Positions 22,504 through 29,740 of a stretch of DNA of 64,000 nucleotides are shown one piece after another. Source of the DNA: Candidatus Poseidoniaceae archaeon (GTDB lineage: Archaea > Thermoplasmatota > Poseidoniia > Poseidoniales > Poseidoniaceae); contig CALKGM010000002.1 of assembly GCA_938084675.1 (NCBI GenBank), forward strand, positions 1 through 64,000, given 5' to 3'. A model generated the notes under the pieces. That model ran no database searches. It was not told the DNA's origin and was given only the letters and a program-made list of their open reading frames with translations. The position numbers and the translations under genes are program-made. How positions within the stretch are numbered: the stretch's first letter is position 1; each line of letters opens with the position of its first letter.

Positions 22504-23088
22504 ATGACAATGGATGAAGCAACCTTAGTCCTTAATGTTATTTTGTACGTCCTTCTTCCTCTCTGGGGGATTGCAGGAATGCTCGACTGGTGGTGTCACC
22601 GCAATACCGAGATCGAGAAGACATCTGGATTGAAAGAAGCATATATCCACTGCCTCATGGGTGTACAAATCTGCATCCCTCTTGTTCTCTCGCTTCTGTT
22701 TGAGGTAAATGTCCTCATTATGTTGCTCTGTTTCGTTGCCCTCATTGCACACGAAGTTGTAGCCCACTACGATGTCCATTTCGCAACGGGTAAGCGAGAA
22801 ATATCCATTTGGGAGGTTCATGCTCACAACTATTTGGCAACCCTTCCTTTCTTTCTCATTCTTCTCATCATCGTCCGTAAGTGGGAGGTGTTCCTCGATA
22901 TGGCTACCCTCAATTGGAGCGGTGGATTTAGCATTGAATGGAGAAAGGAGCCACTCGGCAACTCAGGAAACTATGCGACGTTCTACATGGTTCTCATGGG
23001 CATTTTTGTCGTGTTCCCCTACATGCAAGAATGGTGGCGATGTTATACTTATGAGAAGAAACACGGCAAACCTCAGGTGGATGCATGA
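22504..23088 (+). CDS. Histidine-rich integral membrane protein, first gene of the lipid-like operon
   Basis: Family not recognised. The 194-residue product has four or five membrane segments (LVLNVILYVLLPLWGIAGM, CIPLVLSLLFEVNVLIMLLCFVAL in part, ATLPFFLILLIIV, FYMVLMGIFVVFPYM). His and acidic residues cluster at the membrane faces: DWWCHR, EAYIHCL, AHEVVAHYDVHFATGK and WEVHAHNYL. Such clusters are typical of membrane diiron hydroxylases and desaturases, though the spacing matches no family I know. The stop overlaps the ketosynthase start by four bases (ATGA). A catalytic membrane oxidase role is inference. Confidence 0.7.
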   Translation: MTMDEATLVLNVILYVLLPLWGIAGMLDWWCHRNTEIEKTSGLKEAYIHCLMGVQICIPLVLSLLFEVNVLIMLLCFVALIAHEVVAHYDVHFATGKREISIWEVHAHNYLATLPFFLILLIIVRKWEVFLDMATLNWSGGFSIEWRKEPLGNSGNYATFYMVLMGIFVVFPYMQEWWRCYTYEKKHGKPQVDA

Positions 23089-24221
23089 CGGTTTACATCA
23101 CCAGCACCGGTGCCTTTCTTCCTGGTCCTCCAATTTCAGTTGGTGAGGTAGAAGGAATATTGGGGGCAGTTCATGGAAAGCCTTCTTCGCTTCGAGTTCA
23201 AATCCAAAAAGCGAATAAAATTGAAACCCGTCATTACGCCATTGATGGAAACCAAAAAACAACTCATAGCAATACAGAAATGGCCTCGAATGCGGCTGAG
23301 CAATGTCTTGACAGAGCATTCCTGACCCGGGATAAAATCGGAATGCTTGCGGTCGCCTCAACTCAAGGTGACCTCCCTGCACCGGGAATGGCAAGTATGG
23401 TCCAAGCAGAATTAGGCCTCCCAGCAATTGAAATCTTGACTACCCATGGAATCTGTTCATCATCGATGATGGCTCTTAAGGCTTCATGGAACAGCCTTCG
23501 TTTGGGTGACCACGAAGCAGCCGTTGTGGTTTCGAGTGAACTCTCAAGCCGTCTTCTCAAGAAGCAACGCTATGAGGCTGCAACGGAATCAACATTTGCC
23601 TCTAAGCGAATTGACTTCAACACTGAATTTCTTCGGTGGATGCTTTCTGATGGCGCTGGTGCCTTGCTTTTACAGGACAAACCTGCCCCGAAGGGAATCA
23701 GTTTCCGAATTGATTGGATTCACGGTTTCTCCCATGCACATGCCCTTCCAACATGCATGAGCGTCGGTTCTGCGGGTCTTCCTGATGATGAACGGACGTG
23801 GCAGGATTACGACACTTACGGTGAAGCAGAGAAGGCTGGAGCCCTTCTCCTCCGCCAAGAAGTACGATTGCTTGACAACATTGTGCGTATGGGGGTTGAT
23901 GGATATCTCCGACTCGTTGAAGACGGCATCAGTGTCCCGAGTGAAATCGATCATTTCTTGTGCCATTATTCCAGCCATCATTTCAGGGACAAGATTTTGG
24001 ATTTGCTGGACGCTGCGGGAGTTGGCATACCTGAAGAGCGCTGGTGGACCAATCTCTACACTCGGGGGAATACTGGAGCTGCTTCCTTATTCATCATGAT
24101 TGATGAATTTCTTAGAACTGAAGATGTTACCATCAGTGATGGAGATACTATTCTTTGCTTTGTTCCTGAAAGTGGACGGTTCAATACAACATACATGCAA
24201 CTGACGGCGGTGAGCTCATGA
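23085..24221 (+). CDS. Ketosynthase III-like condensing enzyme (DarB/StlD-like)
   Basis: Thiolase-fold condensing enzyme of the beta-ketoacyl-ACP synthase III group, 378 residues. The nucleophile is Cys124 in HGICSSSMMALK, with His294 (HFLCHYSSHHF) and Asn329 (TRGNTGAAS) completing the FabH-type Cys-His-Asn triad. The N-terminus (VYITSTGAFLPGPPIS, then NKIETRHYAID) resembles DarB/StlD-type ketosynthases of bacterial dialkylresorcinol clusters, from memory and unchecked. Such enzymes condense acyl thioesters. There is no fatty acid synthase in view. It is overlapped by four bases on both sides, so it is translationally coupled within the operon. Confidence 0.85.
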   Translation: MTVYITSTGAFLPGPPISVGEVEGILGAVHGKPSSLRVQIQKANKIETRHYAIDGNQKTTHSNTEMASNAAEQCLDRAFLTRDKIGMLAVASTQGDLPAPGMASMVQAELGLPAIEILTTHGICSSSMMALKASWNSLRLGDHEAAVVVSSELSSRLLKKQRYEAATESTFASKRIDFNTEFLRWMLSDGAGALLLQDKPAPKGISFRIDWIHGFSHAHALPTCMSVGSAGLPDDERTWQDYDTYGEAEKAGALLLRQEVRLLDNIVRMGVDGYLRLVEDGISVPSEIDHFLCHYSSHHFRDKILDLLDAAGVGIPEERWWTNLYTRGNTGAASLFIMIDEFLRTEDVTISDGDTILCFVPESGRFNTTYMQLTAVSS

Positions 24222-24967
24222 ACGATGGAGAAATAGCAATTGATGGAAGCCTCGGCAGCAAAGAACCTTTTGACTCAAAGAACGAGCGAGTTTTGAATCC
24301 TCATGCTCAACGTTGCCTACAACAACTCCTTAGAGTTTGGTTGGGGTTCGAACGAGACCTCTCAACAGTCCCTCTACTGCGTCGTATTGATTTAGGAACT
24401 TACACGATTGACGACCATCTTTGTCTGTTGAGGAATCTCAGGCAGCAGGTCATTGAGGGTTCACGTTGGATTACGCGCACGGCAAGTAGTTTTGACCGTA
24501 ATCATGCAGAAATCCGTTCAACAATCATTAGCCATGCTGTTGATGAACACCGTGATTACGAACTGTTGGAAAAGGATTATGTCGCCTCTGGTGGAGACTT
24601 GAATGACATTTTAGGGATGGAGCGGAACGTTGGCTCGGAAGCCCTTCACGGTTTTTTGATGCACCGCTCATCCCGTTCCAATCCAGTTGACCTCTTGGGT
24701 GCGATGTGGATTATTGAAGGGCTTGGAGAAAAGATGGCTCGTTCGTGGGCTGAACGCATTCAGGAACTAACAGGCCTTGGTGAGGATTCCACTCGCTTCA
24801 TGACCTATCATGGACACAATGACGGTGACCACATGGAACGGTTTTACGACATGCTCGACGAGGTGTGCGTGGATGAATTAACAGTTCGTTCAATTATCAA
24901 AACATCTCGAGTCGTTGCACGATTGTACCGACTACAACTGGAGGAAGTAGAACATGAGCTTGAATGA
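24218..24967 (+). CDS. Heme-oxygenase-like diiron oxidase (HDO/TenA-like fold)
   Basis: A 249-residue all-helical protein of the heme-oxygenase-like iron-containing redox family. Candidate metal ligands are Glu80 (VIEGSRW), Glu110 and His111 (HAVDEHRDYE), Glu167 (MWIIEGLGEKMA) and the HxxxDxxH set His198, Asp202, His205 (YHGHNDGDHMERF). This last motif is a hallmark of the family, which includes UndA (makes 1-undecene from lauric acid) and several N- and C-oxygenases. The exact reaction here is unknown. Next to a condensing enzyme and a desaturase, oxidation of an acyl chain is a reasonable guess. The start overlaps the ketosynthase stop by four bases. Confidence 0.75.
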   Translation: MNDGEIAIDGSLGSKEPFDSKNERVLNPHAQRCLQQLLRVWLGFERDLSTVPLLRRIDLGTYTIDDHLCLLRNLRQQVIEGSRWITRTASSFDRNHAEIRSTIISHAVDEHRDYELLEKDYVASGGDLNDILGMERNVGSEALHGFLMHRSSRSNPVDLLGAMWIIEGLGEKMARSWAERIQELTGLGEDSTRFMTYHGHNDGDHMERFYDMLDEVCVDELTVRSIIKTSRVVARLYRLQLEEVEHELE

Positions 24968-25874
24968 ACGACCCCTAAGCCGTAAGGAACAACGAATGCA
25001 GCGTAAGCGTGCAAAGATGATGTCAGGAAATCATGGTAGGATGCCCGCAACACTTTCAGACGCATTGACCGGTGACAAAAGTTTGCCTCTTGACGATGAA
25101 GCCAAGGAGTTCTGGTTGAAGGACCTCAAGAATCCACTACGAATTATCATCTTACCAACGCTCCGGATTCTTCTAACGATTACCCTTCATATTACCTATT
25201 ACATCAAGCGCCTCCTTCCGTTCCAGTGGAAAGCACATCGGTTTTTGCAATGGCAAATCTGCTTTTTCATGAAGAACTTCGTTCGCCCAGAAGCCAATGT
25301 TCTCATCCTAAGACATTTCCAAGCTGAAAGTAATTTACTGAATTTCGTAATTGATAATTCAGGAAAGGAGGATGTTGAACCGGTTCTCATCTATCCAAAG
25401 ATGATACGGGACTTGATGGTGCAGACCTTCGTTCATCACGATCAAGGCGTATTGATGACCATGCGAGACCTTGAGGAACCCGACCGTTCACTCTGGCCGA
25501 TTGAGGGCAAAGAACTCTCGTGGGCAAACTGGCAGCCCGTTCAGGTTGACTACAGTACTCAACGAAAGAAATGGACGCAATTCTTGGATTTTGAAACAGC
25601 ACATGAACTGTTCAAAACATCGTTTTGTTTCTGGCTCACAGCAAAGGAATACGAGGCAGCGATCAATTCGTTCCAATTCGACCATTCAGTGGGCCTGTTG
25701 ATTGATGACATAGTCGGTGCTACCCATTTTGCAGATATTGCTTACAACCGATTCCCAATGATTCTTGTCGGACCTACAGGGCTCTCCTACCGCTTTTTGA
25801 TGCACGGCTTTTTCGTTGAGCACGTCCACGCCCATCTTGAGAACATGCGAATCAACCTTGGATTGGAGAATTGA
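24954..25874 (+). CDS. Unknown operon protein (306 residues)
   Basis: I do not recognise this family by sequence. The chain starts with a very basic N-terminus (RKEQRMQRKRAKMM), continues with a hydrophobic stretch around residues 60-85 (LRIIILPTLRILLTITLHI) that may associate with the membrane, and then an alpha/beta region with several conserved-looking aromatic and acidic residues (LRHFQAESNLLNF, FVHHDQGVL, DDIVGATHFAD). It overlaps the oxidase gene by 14 bases and the desaturase gene by 4, so it is surely part of the same functional unit. Possible roles include lipid-binding or an acyl-handling partner; no catalytic motif is clear. Confidence 0.65.
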   Translation: MSLNERPLSRKEQRMQRKRAKMMSGNHGRMPATLSDALTGDKSLPLDDEAKEFWLKDLKNPLRIIILPTLRILLTITLHITYYIKRLLPFQWKAHRFLQWQICFFMKNFVRPEANVLILRHFQAESNLLNFVIDNSGKEDVEPVLIYPKMIRDLMVQTFVHHDQGVLMTMRDLEEPDRSLWPIEGKELSWANWQPVQVDYSTQRKKWTQFLDFETAHELFKTSFCFWLTAKEYEAAINSFQFDHSVGLLIDDIVGATHFADIAYNRFPMILVGPTGLSYRFLMHGFFVEHVHAHLENMRINLGLEN

Positions 25875-26740
25875 TGATGCTGGTTCGTTGGGCCGACCTT
25901 CAATCATTGATTTACATGGTGCTGTATCCATCTTTGATGGCCTGGCAGTGGTTTTACGGCATTCAGTGGTATCTCTATCTCATCATGCTGATTCTGTCTG
26001 TTGGGCTTTCTGTGGTTCAGCACAATCATACACATCTTCGGATGTGGCGGTGGAAGCCCCTTAACCGCCTTACAGATGCTTATCTAAGTGTCATTCAAGG
26101 CATCCCGTCGTATGTATTCTTCCCGTCACATATTGGCAATCATCACCGTTTTAATCATGGTCCGGAAGATGAGACCCGAACCTATCGCTTTGGGGGGCAT
26201 CACAATCATCTCATGGGCTATTTGCTTCATCCCTTTCTGGCGTTGACCGTCGTGGTGCCTACCTCCTTGAGTTTCCTGAAAAAACGAAGCAAGAATAGTG
26301 ATTACCAGCCCATTTTTGAGATCATCCTTATCGGAGCCTCCGCCGTTATTCTGGCTTCGATGAATGTGCAACTTTGGTTTGTCCTTGTGATTCTTCCTCA
26401 AATGCACGGCCTTCACTGGTTGCTTGGAGCCAATTACTTACAACATGCAGGAGCACGACCGAGTTCGGGTCCAGAAGCGACTGAACCCTCAACCCTCGAC
26501 TACTCTCGTAATTTCACAGGCGCAGTCAATTGGATTTGGTTTAATATCGGTTATCATTCAGCCCATCATGAATCTCCTCGGGTACATTGGAGTGATTTGC
26601 CAGTGCTTCACGAAAGGAAAAAATCGAACGTGCCCGAGTGGCTAATAGAGCGTAGCCTCATGTTCTATATGTTGAGGTGGATGAATGCATTCTCAAGGAA
26701 AAGCCCCCGGAACTTTCACGATTTGACCCCGGAGGGGTGA
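25871..26740 (+). CDS. Membrane fatty acid desaturase
   Basis: Integral-membrane diiron desaturase/hydroxylase of the fatty acid desaturase family, 289 residues. The histidine boxes are HNHTH (51-55), HIGNHHRFNH (87-96) and HSAHH (229-233), plus NYLQHAG with His192. Hydrophobic segments flank the boxes as expected. The usual substrate is an acyl chain bound to CoA, ACP or a lipid. Archaeal lipids are isoprenoid ethers, so either a fatty acyl product is made by this operon or the enzyme acts on another chain. It is the last gene of the five-gene overlapping set and is preceded by an overlap of four bases. Confidence 0.88.
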   Translation: MMMLVRWADLQSLIYMVLYPSLMAWQWFYGIQWYLYLIMLILSVGLSVVQHNHTHLRMWRWKPLNRLTDAYLSVIQGIPSYVFFPSHIGNHHRFNHGPEDETRTYRFGGHHNHLMGYLLHPFLALTVVVPTSLSFLKKRSKNSDYQPIFEIILIGASAVILASMNVQLWFVLVILPQMHGLHWLLGANYLQHAGARPSSGPEATEPSTLDYSRNFTGAVNWIWFNIGYHSAHHESPRVHWSDLPVLHERKKSNVPEWLIERSLMFYMLRWMNAFSRKSPRNFHDLTPEG

Positions 26741-26788: not shown

Positions 26789-29092
26789 ATGGAGTCAAAG
26801 TCTCTCGTGCTTAGTTTGGTGCTGGCATTCCTGCTTGTAGGGGCAGGTTTTTCTCTTGTTGCTATGGATTCAACGAGCGAAGAACAGGATGATTCCATTG
26901 TCTCCGAACAAGATACCACGGTTCTTGTCAATAATCCTCCCTCCGTATTGACTCCTGCTGTGGTCTCAATGGACTGGACCGGTGAGAACGCTACGCTTTC
27001 TGGGTTCGTAACAGACGAAGTACCTCAAAATACCTCACTCTCCGTTCGAATGCTTGATCTGAATTTTGCAGAACTCACTGCCTACAACATGACTCCTGCG
27101 CTGGATGGAGCATGGACGGTTGAAACCTCCCTCCATGACCCAGGGGAATGGATTGTTGAATTGATTGCAGTTGACGATGAACAACAGGTTAGTGAACGCA
27201 TACTCATCGAATTGATTATTGTCGCTCCCATTGAACCGCAAGTAACATTGACGTTCCGATGGGACGAGCCAGTTGAGAATGAAACCAACGGAACACTCAG
27301 TGGACTCGTTTTACATCAGTTCCCCGCCTCCTGTACGGTGGAATATCATCCTCTTGGCCAAAGTCCAGCTCTCCTTGTTGCAGGTCAGATTAATGAAAGT
27401 ACAGGTGCTTACCACATCATAGTTAACACCGAGTCGCACAATACTGAAGGAGATATTATTTCCGAATGTGGAATTTTTAATCAAACAGACCTCACTGTTA
27501 GGGTTGCGTTACCTATGCCTCCTGAGCCTGTAGGGGATGCTGATGGTGACGCAGTTCTTGATGACGCAGATCAGTGTCCTTCAACTCCCGAAGGGGAGCC
27601 CGTCTATTCAACTGGATGTTCAGACTCTGAAACCGATGATGACGAAGATGGAATCATGAATGACATGGATGCCTGTCCGAACACAATGCCGAATGAATCA
27701 GTTGACGCCAACGGATGCTCTCAAAGCCAATTGGACGACGACAATGACGGTGTGAACAATGCTGCTGACCTCTGTCCCGCAACCCCTGCAAACGAGGCTG
27801 CTGATGCCACCGGATGTTCACCTTCTCAACGTGATAGTGACGGTGATACCGTTAACGACGCAGCCGACCAGTGCCCCAATACGCCTGCTGGGACTGCTGT
27901 GGGTACAGATGGATGCCCAATACCTGATTGGTCGCATGAAGACTCATTCCTCTGTCTCGATGGACAAGGTGCATGGGCTAAGGACCTCAATGGGGACGGA
28001 AATAGTTACACGGCGAATACGCGTGGTGATGGACAAGAAGGTGGTGGAGGAGGTTCAGGGCCTTGGTTCCAATGCGAGGTTTCGTTATCCTTTACATCCA
28101 CGACGATGCAAATCAACTCCAATGCTATTCCAAACCACAACTGGCTCTCAGCATTTGCAGCAAATGCTGACGAGCAAAGTGAATCCTTTACCATCGCTCT
28201 TGAGCCAGTAAACGATACCAATGGTGGACATTCATCCGCCAATTGTCCGGCCTCAAACGGAGCATATGAGTGTGCTCCAGATCGTGGTCCTGTCGGGGTT
28301 GCAGTGAATGGGGTACCAATTTTTGGTCCTGAAGAAGGGCCGGGTGGGGATGCAGTTGCCTTGGAATTCCTTTATTTCAATGAAGACCGGCAGCCCATTG
28401 ACCTGGGTTATTGTGGGGCACACAACGGCCCCTCAGGTGTACACTATCACTACGATGCGATGTGCCAGTTTTGGGATGATCCAAATGACGAGACTATCGT
28501 GAATTACGATTATACAGACCTTGACTCAACACAACACTCTCCCATAATCGGATGGGCATTTGATGGTTATCCAATCTATGGAATGTACGCTTGGGACGAT
28601 AACGGGCAAGTAGTCCCCATGAAATCATCTTACGAAGTTGAACGCTCTTCTGAGGGAGGAGACCAAGGTTACAATGGAATTGATGATTGGAATTATGTTA
28701 GTGGCCTCGGGGACTTGGACCAGTGTAACGGTCGGTTTGGCCCAACTCCGGAGTACCCAGATGGGACCTATTACTATGTTTCAACACCTATCAGCGCCTC
28801 CACAAAAACAGTAGTGGATACGGATTCACAAACCGTACCAATGATTGGTTTCCCGTACTTCCTACTTTGCTATCATGGAGAAGCGGATATGAGCAATGCT
28901 GATGCTGGCGGTCCCGGAGGGGGCGGAGGACCTGGCGGTGGCGGTCAAGGAGCCTTTGGAGCTCAAGTTCTCTACACCAATGCACCGGATTTCGAGGATG
29001 AGCCTTCAACCATAAGCGATGTCTTTTGGGACTTCTCTTGGCTATGGGTCACACTCCTTGGAGCTGGCTTCATGCTAAGGGTCCGTGATTGA
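26789..29092 (+). CDS. YHYH-domain surface protein with thrombospondin type 3 repeats
   Basis: A 767-residue secreted protein. It has an N-terminal signal/anchor (SLVLSLVLAFLLVGAGFSLV), a beta-rich region to about residue 240, and four or so calcium-binding type 3 repeats (about 250-370; DNDGVNNAADLCPATP type). A YHYH domain follows with its name motif at about 552-556 in GVHYHYDAMCQFW, together with the IGWAFDGYPIYGMY segment typical of that domain. A Gly/Pro-rich linker (GGPGGGGGPGGGG) and a C-terminal hydrophobic helix (LWVTLLGAGFML) end the chain. YHYH proteins are metal-related in some bacteria, but the function is unproven. It lies nine bases upstream of the SCO1-like gene, suggesting co-expression. 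Confidence 0.82.
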   Translation: MESKSLVLSLVLAFLLVGAGFSLVAMDSTSEEQDDSIVSEQDTTVLVNNPPSVLTPAVVSMDWTGENATLSGFVTDEVPQNTSLSVRMLDLNFAELTAYNMTPALDGAWTVETSLHDPGEWIVELIAVDDEQQVSERILIELIIVAPIEPQVTLTFRWDEPVENETNGTLSGLVLHQFPASCTVEYHPLGQSPALLVAGQINESTGAYHIIVNTESHNTEGDIISECGIFNQTDLTVRVALPMPPEPVGDADGDAVLDDADQCPSTPEGEPVYSTGCSDSETDDDEDGIMNDMDACPNTMPNESVDANGCSQSQLDDDNDGVNNAADLCPATPANEAADATGCSPSQRDSDGDTVNDAADQCPNTPAGTAVGTDGCPIPDWSHEDSFLCLDGQGAWAKDLNGDGNSYTANTRGDGQEGGGGGSGPWFQCEVSLSFTSTTMQINSNAIPNHNWLSAFAANADEQSESFTIALEPVNDTNGGHSSANCPASNGAYECAPDRGPVGVAVNGVPIFGPEEGPGGDAVALEFLYFNEDRQPIDLGYCGAHNGPSGVHYHYDAMCQFWDDPNDETIVNYDYTDLDSTQHSPIIGWAFDGYPIYGMYAWDDNGQVVPMKSSYEVERSSEGGDQGYNGIDDWNYVSGLGDLDQCNGRFGPTPEYPDGTYYYVSTPISASTKTVVDTDSQTVPMIGFPYFLLCYHGEADMSNADAGGPGGGGGPGGGGQGAFGAQVLYTNAPDFEDEPSTISDVFWDFSWLWVTLLGAGFMLRVRD

Positions 29093-29101
29093 GGGGATTG
29101 A

Positions 29102-29740
29102 ATGAAACCATACAGCCTCAGCTGTGTTTTGGTTTCGTTGATGATGCTAAGTGGATGTACGGCTGTTGAGCCCGATGTTTTTGACGGTGAAGACATCGTC
29201 CCAATTGGATATGATGCGTTTTCATTGCACGACCATGACGGATACGCATACGGCTCTGAGAACTGGAGTGAGTCTGTGACAGTGGTCCAATTTATGCTTA
29301 CCAACTGTTGGGATGTTTGTCCAACTCAAACTCAAGACCTCTCAGCATTATATGAGGAGTTTAGCGATTACATCGGGAAGGATTTGGAATTCGTTTCAAT
29401 CACAGTAGATCCTTGGCGAGACGACGAAGTCGCATTGACTGACTACATGACAGCGTTCAACACATCATGGCCAATGGTTACCGTGCCCTTCCTTAATGAT
29501 GAGAATCTGTCCGTAATTGAACAGGTTTGGAATGACTTTGACATTACCGTTACTTTACTCGAAAGCAACAACAGTACATCCGTTCAAGGCCGAGGGCATA
29601 CAGTCTATTACAACGTTGAGCATACAGATGGAATTGTACTTGTTGACCGAGAGGGGATGCAACGTGTCCGTTGGACAAGTGACGATTGGGACCTGAATGG
29701 AATCCGAAACGATATCAACGCTCTTTTGAATGGAATTTGA
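29102..29740 (+). CDS. SCO1/SenC-like lipoprotein
   Basis: Thioredoxin-fold, copper-binding type protein that in other organisms helps insert copper into cytochrome c oxidase. The 212-residue product has a lipobox (MMLSGC, Cys19), the copper/redox CxxxC motif in TNCWDVCP (Cys69, Cys73) and the distal metal-binding His166 (GRGHTVYYN). These are all the SCO metal ligands. Lipid attachment would place it on the outer face of the membrane. It sits just after the YHYH protein, and both have metal-related motifs, so a shared role in metal handling at the surface is possible. It converges on the lpd gene. Confidence 0.9.
   Translation: MKPYSLSCVLVSLMMLSGCTAVEPDVFDGEDIVPIGYDAFSLHDHDGYAYGSENWSESVTVVQFMLTNCWDVCPTQTQDLSALYEEFSDYIGKDLEFVSITVDPWRDDEVALTDYMTAFNTSWPMVTVPFLNDENLSVIEQVWNDFDITVTLLESNNSTSVQGRGHTVYYNVEHTDGIVLVDREGMQRVRWTSDDWDLNGIRNDINALLNGI

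Follow-up and report, generated by a model that had tools for sequence, protein, structure and literature searches.

The window analysed here is a 64,000-nt stretch of contig C2 from a 1.94-Mb metagenome-assembled genome (MAG) of a Poseidoniaceae archaeon. It contains an operon of five open reading frames (ORFs), all on the + strand, which together span positions 22504–26740. In the ORF listing, successive genes overlap by 4, 4, 14 and 4 bases, exactly as the first-pass annotation of this DNA had stated. The five genes are as follows.

22504..23088, + strand: g1, a His-rich integral membrane protein of 194 aa, without a Pfam/NCBIfam family
23085..24221, + strand: ketosynthase (KS) of the StlD/DarB group, 378 aa, with C124/H294/N329 invariant
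24218..24967, + strand: haem-oxygenase-like dimetal oxidase (HO), 249 aa, PF14518, with a candidate 3His/3carboxylate site
24954..25874, + strand: DUF6999 protein, 306 aa, PF22523, with an all-helical model
25871..26740, + strand: membrane desaturase of the FA_desaturase family in an exchangeable fifth slot, 289 aa, with a TTG start and three His boxes

The five genes are real and under selection, because their overlaps recur across Poseidoniaceae and dN/dS was 0.02–0.10 in all of them, which indicates strong purifying selection. These two observations, along with recurrence in dozens of genomes, ruled out chance or mis-called ORFs. Contamination of the MAG was likewise ruled out, as numerous independent Poseidoniaceae MAGs carry the block, next to either nrdJ/lpd or DNA polymerase II genes. 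A viral origin of the small proteins was rejected because none of them had a PHROG match. The promoter and terminator scan gave counts at the level of shuffled sequence, such a scan being uninformative for an archaeon.

Families and conserved residues of the five proteins

The KS is ketosynthase III-like. In the Pfam/NCBIfam profile search, it matched PF08541 and NF005293 (StlD/DarB), the latter being its best NCBIfam model and covering its full length. Residues 2–376 aligned to StlD with an E value of 2.3e-72. The KS family profile scored 406 bits against StlD (PDB 5gk0) and 92 bits against the best FabH, which makes StlD by far the nearest solved structure. Cys124, His294 and Asn329 were invariant across 21 aligned ketosynthases. 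The earlier description of a DarB/StlD-like enzyme with an intact Cys-His-Asn triad is thus borne out. An OleA-type ketosynthase was rejected, as the same profile scored only ~54 bits against the OleA-like PDB entries 3row and 3s21, which we take to be OleA. The StlD/DarB enzymes of bacterial stilbene and dialkylresorcinol biosynthesis are partnered by DarA/StlC and an acyl carrier protein (ACP), whereas the KS described here is partnered by a dimetal oxidase and DUF6999.

The HO matched PF14518 (haem-oxygenase-2) with 34.4 bits, above the cut-off of 28.9. Residues E80, H106, E167, H198, D202 and H205 were invariant in 20 oxidase sequences, which include the HxxxDxxH motif noticed earlier (H198-x3-D202-x2-H205). 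Since they match the 3His/3carboxylate pattern described for haem-oxygenase-like dimetal oxidases (PMC13108848), these six residues are a candidate dimetal ligand set, assigned by residue spacing. The same family, ligand set and motif are shared by UndA, BesC, SznF, PolF and MboA (reviewed in PMC13108848). Unlike these enzymes, the HO adjoins a ketosynthase or is fused to it. No characterised relative of the HO was found, the nearest solved structure being the uncharacterised 3dde.

The product of the fourth gene had been described as an unknown protein of 306 residues. Its length and its lack of a known function stand, but it belongs to a named family, as it covers the whole PF22523 (DUF6999) domain with 300.7 bits. 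Its invariant residues are N115, R120, H121, H162, D163, D212, D243, N265, R280, H284 and E289. The structural model was confident and all-helical (pLDDT 85), and Foldseek returned no significant structural match. PolF was on the Foldseek list, where every E value was > 1, and hhalign gave 0.3% against haem-oxygenase-like proteins. Neither comparison gave support for reading DUF6999 as a second haem-oxygenase-like oxidase.

The first gene, g1, does encode an integral, His-rich membrane protein, and profile searches placed it in no Pfam/NCBIfam family. Ten residues were invariant (H32, E38, H49, H83, E84, H88, D90, E104, H106 and H108). Its AlphaFold2 (AF2) model consists of long helices (pLDDT 87) and had no PDB match in the structure search. 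From the many invariant His, Glu and Asp residues in a helical membrane protein, g1 is likely a membrane metal enzyme. The reading of g1 as a divergent FA_hydroxylase was rejected, as hhalign gave a probability of 0.2% against the PF04116-type neighbours and no Pfam match was obtained. The desaturase scored 89.2 bits against PF00487 (cut-off 29.7 bits) and carries the three expected His boxes, HNHTH, HIGNHH and HSAHH.

Gene order, distribution and origin of the operon

A ketosynthase scan of bacterial and archaeal genomes yielded 55 loci. The order g1-KS-HO-DUF6999 was kept in every g1-bearing locus examined, namely in Poseidoniaceae, a Myxococcales MAG, Pseudocolwellia, Obscuribacter, Colwellia (where the record shows frame breaks in both HO and DUF6999) and on a plasmid of Pseudoalteromonas sp. 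THAF3 (L057, 13442–16619). Pseudoalteromonas was also the only DUF6999 host in the plasmid collection searched. One ORF (617–643 aa in clean cases) encodes both KS and HO in Cellvibrio (fused set at L045, 4395–8845), Andreprevotia, Deefgea, a Bdellovibrionales MAG and others, and DUF6999 comes after it. Most of these fused loci have an orthologue of the desaturase (44–49% identity) and an FA_hydroxylase upstream in place of g1. The fusion is the strongest hint in the sequences that KS and HO may act in sequence.

DUF6999 was present in 9 of 399 sampled Proteobacteria, one of them the anchor genome. In all eight others, the gene immediately adjoins KS and HO, which are fused in six. The model bacterium Caulobacter vibrioides, used as a control genome, also carries a DUF6999 gene. 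The fifth slot is occupied by a desaturase of the window type, by a second desaturase type, or by nothing. The second type is 39–49% identical to the L008 type in more distant loci and also lies beside g1 in the myxococcal locus. Because this slot is exchangeable or empty, the conserved core comprises four genes; of the five-gene set proposed in the first-pass annotation, g1-KS-HO-DUF6999 holds and the desaturase does not. The genes do co-occur elsewhere, in the same order, in Poseidoniaceae and in bacteria, and neither KS nor HO fell into a family with an unrelated, well-known archaeal role. The first-pass annotation had proposed looking for the five-gene order in Bacteroidetes and in further genomes of Marine Group II. 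The core order does recur in Marine Group II, but the bacterial counterparts found come for the most part from Gamma- and Betaproteobacteria, a myxococcal MAG and Obscuribacter, and are not the dar clusters of Bacteroidetes.

Several loci differ in their surroundings. In L086 (genome G549), the gene after DUF6999 encodes an acyl-[ACP]-phospholipid O-acyltransferase (PRK06814), and in L050 it encodes an MFS+acyltransferase protein. L086 looks mosaic, with a very divergent KS and an HO closer to the archaeal type. A ketosynthase on a plasmid of Streptomyces sp. NBC_01383 (L058, 12022–20149) shares 45% identity with the archaeal KS. The cluster around it differs, as it comprises two ACPs, FabF, FabG, a P450, an FAD oxidoreductase and an SCP2 protein, and neither HO nor DUF6999.

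Among 319 Poseidoniales genomes, DUF6999 and KS were each found in 45. The two genes are co-inherited: 44 genomes have both, on the same contig, and all carriers are Poseidoniaceae. A search of 390 Thermoplasmatota genomes (155 genera) gave 24 matches, again all in Poseidoniaceae. Some relatives within the genus of the window lack the whole block. In one of them (G134), whose nrdJ is 98% identical, lpd directly follows nrdJ, and the segment 22426–29755 is absent with the five genes and the following two neighbours.

26789..29092, + strand: surface protein with TSP3 repeats and a YHYH domain, in the same variable block in the genus
29102..29740, + strand: SCO1/SenC-like lipoprotein, in the same variable block in the genus

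In other Poseidoniaceae, the operon comes after the gene encoding the large subunit of DNA polymerase II or lies elsewhere, and it thus occupies several chromosomal sites. The two neighbours (26789–29740) are gained or lost with the operon in this genus and do not follow it at the other sites. A second, broken operon copy was seen at a contig end (L039, 8001–9039, and G157:C5:123–1037). Here KS breaks off after residue 301 and runs on into the middle part of the desaturase; the copy is either degraded or an artefact of assembly.

In the KS, HO and DUF6999 trees, the archaeal sequences fall into one clade with the g1-bearing bacteria, and the fused lineage stands separately. Because the archaea form a narrow clade among diverse bacteria, a bacterial source is the simplest interpretation. 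From these trees, whose root is not secure, the operon was most likely acquired by the archaea from bacteria.

Acyl-chain supply in the archaeon

The first-pass annotation had inferred a dedicated pathway on the ground that archaea normally lack a fatty acid synthase. This premise does not hold for the present lineage. The same genome encodes, in a row at C14:37561–47938 (L105:4562–14938), a FabI-like enoyl-ACP reductase, a type I synthase of 2934 aa and a 4′-phosphopantetheinyl transferase (PPTase). The synthase has the domain order KS-AT-3xACP-KR-DH and resembles the PfaA polyunsaturated fatty acid synthase, scoring 845 bits against TIGR02813 (PfaA), below the cut-off of 1010. Unlike PfaA systems, which have PfaB/C/D partners, it is flanked by FabI and PPTase, and no PfaB/C/D-like neighbour was seen beside it. 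The three ACP domains (PF00550) of this megasynthase are the only ones found in the genome. PlsC-like acyltransferases, one AMP-binding enzyme and thiolases are also present, and a putative fatty-acid pathway and PlsC homologues have already been described in Marine Group II (PMC6962369).

With the PfaA-like synthase, FabI and PPTase in the same genome, the archaeon can make acyl chains itself. Such chains are therefore no anomaly here, and the operon adds to an acyl metabolism that already exists. The KS-AT part of the synthase was matched in 199 of 319 Poseidoniales genomes, comprising nearly all Poseidoniaceae and part of a second family. As nearly all Poseidoniaceae have the synthase, the restriction of the operon to synthase-bearing genomes is uninformative.

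Candidate pathway, products and significance

The conserved gene set supports the earlier proposal that bacterial-type enzymes for acyl condensation and oxidation form a dedicated pathway in this archaeon, the product being a matter of inference. We think it probable that this is a horizontally acquired, self-contained lipid-type operon, which condenses acyl thioesters in pairs and uses O2 to oxidise what results. The acyl thioesters would come from the PfaA-like type I synthase of the archaeon or from fatty-acid oxidation, and the StlD/DarB-type KS would condense them two at a time, thus joining two acyl chains. The HO would then act directly on the condensation product and oxidise it using O2. 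The membrane desaturase may tailor the acyl chains, as may the FA_hydroxylase that replaces g1 in one bacterial lineage, and g1 and DUF6999 may carry out further membrane-associated steps.

Several observations weigh against this proposal. The KS scored 373.9 bits, under the NCBI StlD/DarB subfamily cut-off of 450, and 318.9 bits, under the DarB cut-off of 550, so the curated NCBIfam thresholds are not reached. The operon contains no DarA aromatase or free ACP gene. Profile and structure searches gave no assignable chemistry for g1 or DUF6999, and none of the members has a known product. The PfaA-like synthase occurs in most Poseidoniaceae with or without the operon, and co-occurrence is no proof of substrate supply.

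Our best single guess at the product class, held tentatively, is a two-chain cyclohexanedione/resorcinol-type lipid. In a strict dialkylresorcinol pathway, KS would make a 2,5-dialkylcyclohexane-1,3-dione, and the dimetal oxidase, rather than DarA, would aromatise it to a resorcinol that serves as a pigment anchor, antioxidant or signal. Dialkylresorcinols (DARs) are built from two fatty-acid intermediates, with DarB as the cyclase and DarA as the aromatase (PMC3949708). StlD and DarB are the nearest characterised ketosynthases, and the KS-HO fusion fits consecutive steps. However, KS lies under the curated cut-offs, and neither membrane oxidases nor DUF6999 are known from dar clusters. We consider the strict pathway rather doubtful. 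The likeness to dialkylresorcinol clusters drawn earlier thus extends to the KS and not to its partners: the Pfam/NCBIfam search of the operon proteins found no DarA (a genome-wide DarA search was not made), and neither DarA nor an ACP gene (DarC) adjoins the KS. A canonical dar cluster was rejected on this basis. Since the operon includes neither DarA nor an ACP gene, we regard it as akin to acyl-condensing specialised-lipid clusters and do not count it among the dar clusters.

Somewhat unlikely, both as a process and in its product, a modified membrane lipid, is the remodelling of acyl chains in, or bound for, phospholipids by desaturation, hydroxylation or an unusual ring or branch, with no free natural product. 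Membrane desaturases and a hydroxylase travel with the set, and PlsC-like genes are present in this archaeon, but a soluble two-substrate ketosynthase would be superfluous for altering finished chains. The acyltransferases after DUF6999 in L086 and L050 agree with remodelling, yet such a neighbour was seen in these two loci only.

We regard a long-chain hydrocarbon or ketone as unlikely. Here, the chains would be condensed head to head, and the oxidase would then cleave a C-C bond oxidatively, yielding a saturated or unsaturated alkene or ketone. UndA, which belongs to this oxidase superfamily, turns fatty acids into 1-alkenes by decarboxylation (PMC13108848), a desaturase is in the set, and several hosts are marine. 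Against this stand the low score of the KS profile with OleA-like entries and the fact that no OleB/C/D genes were recognised beside KS. Products of any other class are given the same low weight. A diffusible signal or defensive metabolite (similar to DARs, pyrones or the Pseudomonas quinolone signal) instead of a structural lipid is quite improbable, as no conserved receptor, exporter or regulator was seen beside the operon in the loci examined, even though the operon is patchy and horizontally moving and relatives of its StlD/DarB-type KS make signals and antibiotics.

The enzyme superfamilies involved are known. In the open-access literature searched, no mention of DUF6999 was found, nor any description of its function, of the KS/haem-oxygenase-like/desaturase set or of the KS-oxidase fusion. 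The lipids and membrane chemistry of Marine Group II are still open to question: none of the 270 MAGs in one study had G1P (glycerol 1-phosphate) dehydrogenase (PMC6461757), and unusual intact lipids could not be linked to these archaea (PMC6962369). A discrete operon with a probable role in joining acyl chains and oxidising them offers a directly testable route to a product, with close relatives in the culturable bacteria Colwellia, Pseudoalteromonas, Cellvibrio and Deefgea. More speculatively, KS-dimetal oxidase-DUF6999 might be a new class of lipid pathway common to bacteria and archaea, which in Poseidoniaceae would run on home-made fatty acids and yield a two-chain non-isoprenoid lipid in the Marine Group II membrane, or a biomarker for it. 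The gene order shared by abundant uncultured marine archaea and a few marine and freshwater bacteria probably points to an undescribed lipid or lipid-like molecule, and finding it would define the chemistry of DUF6999 and of the ketosynthase-dimetal oxidase fusion.

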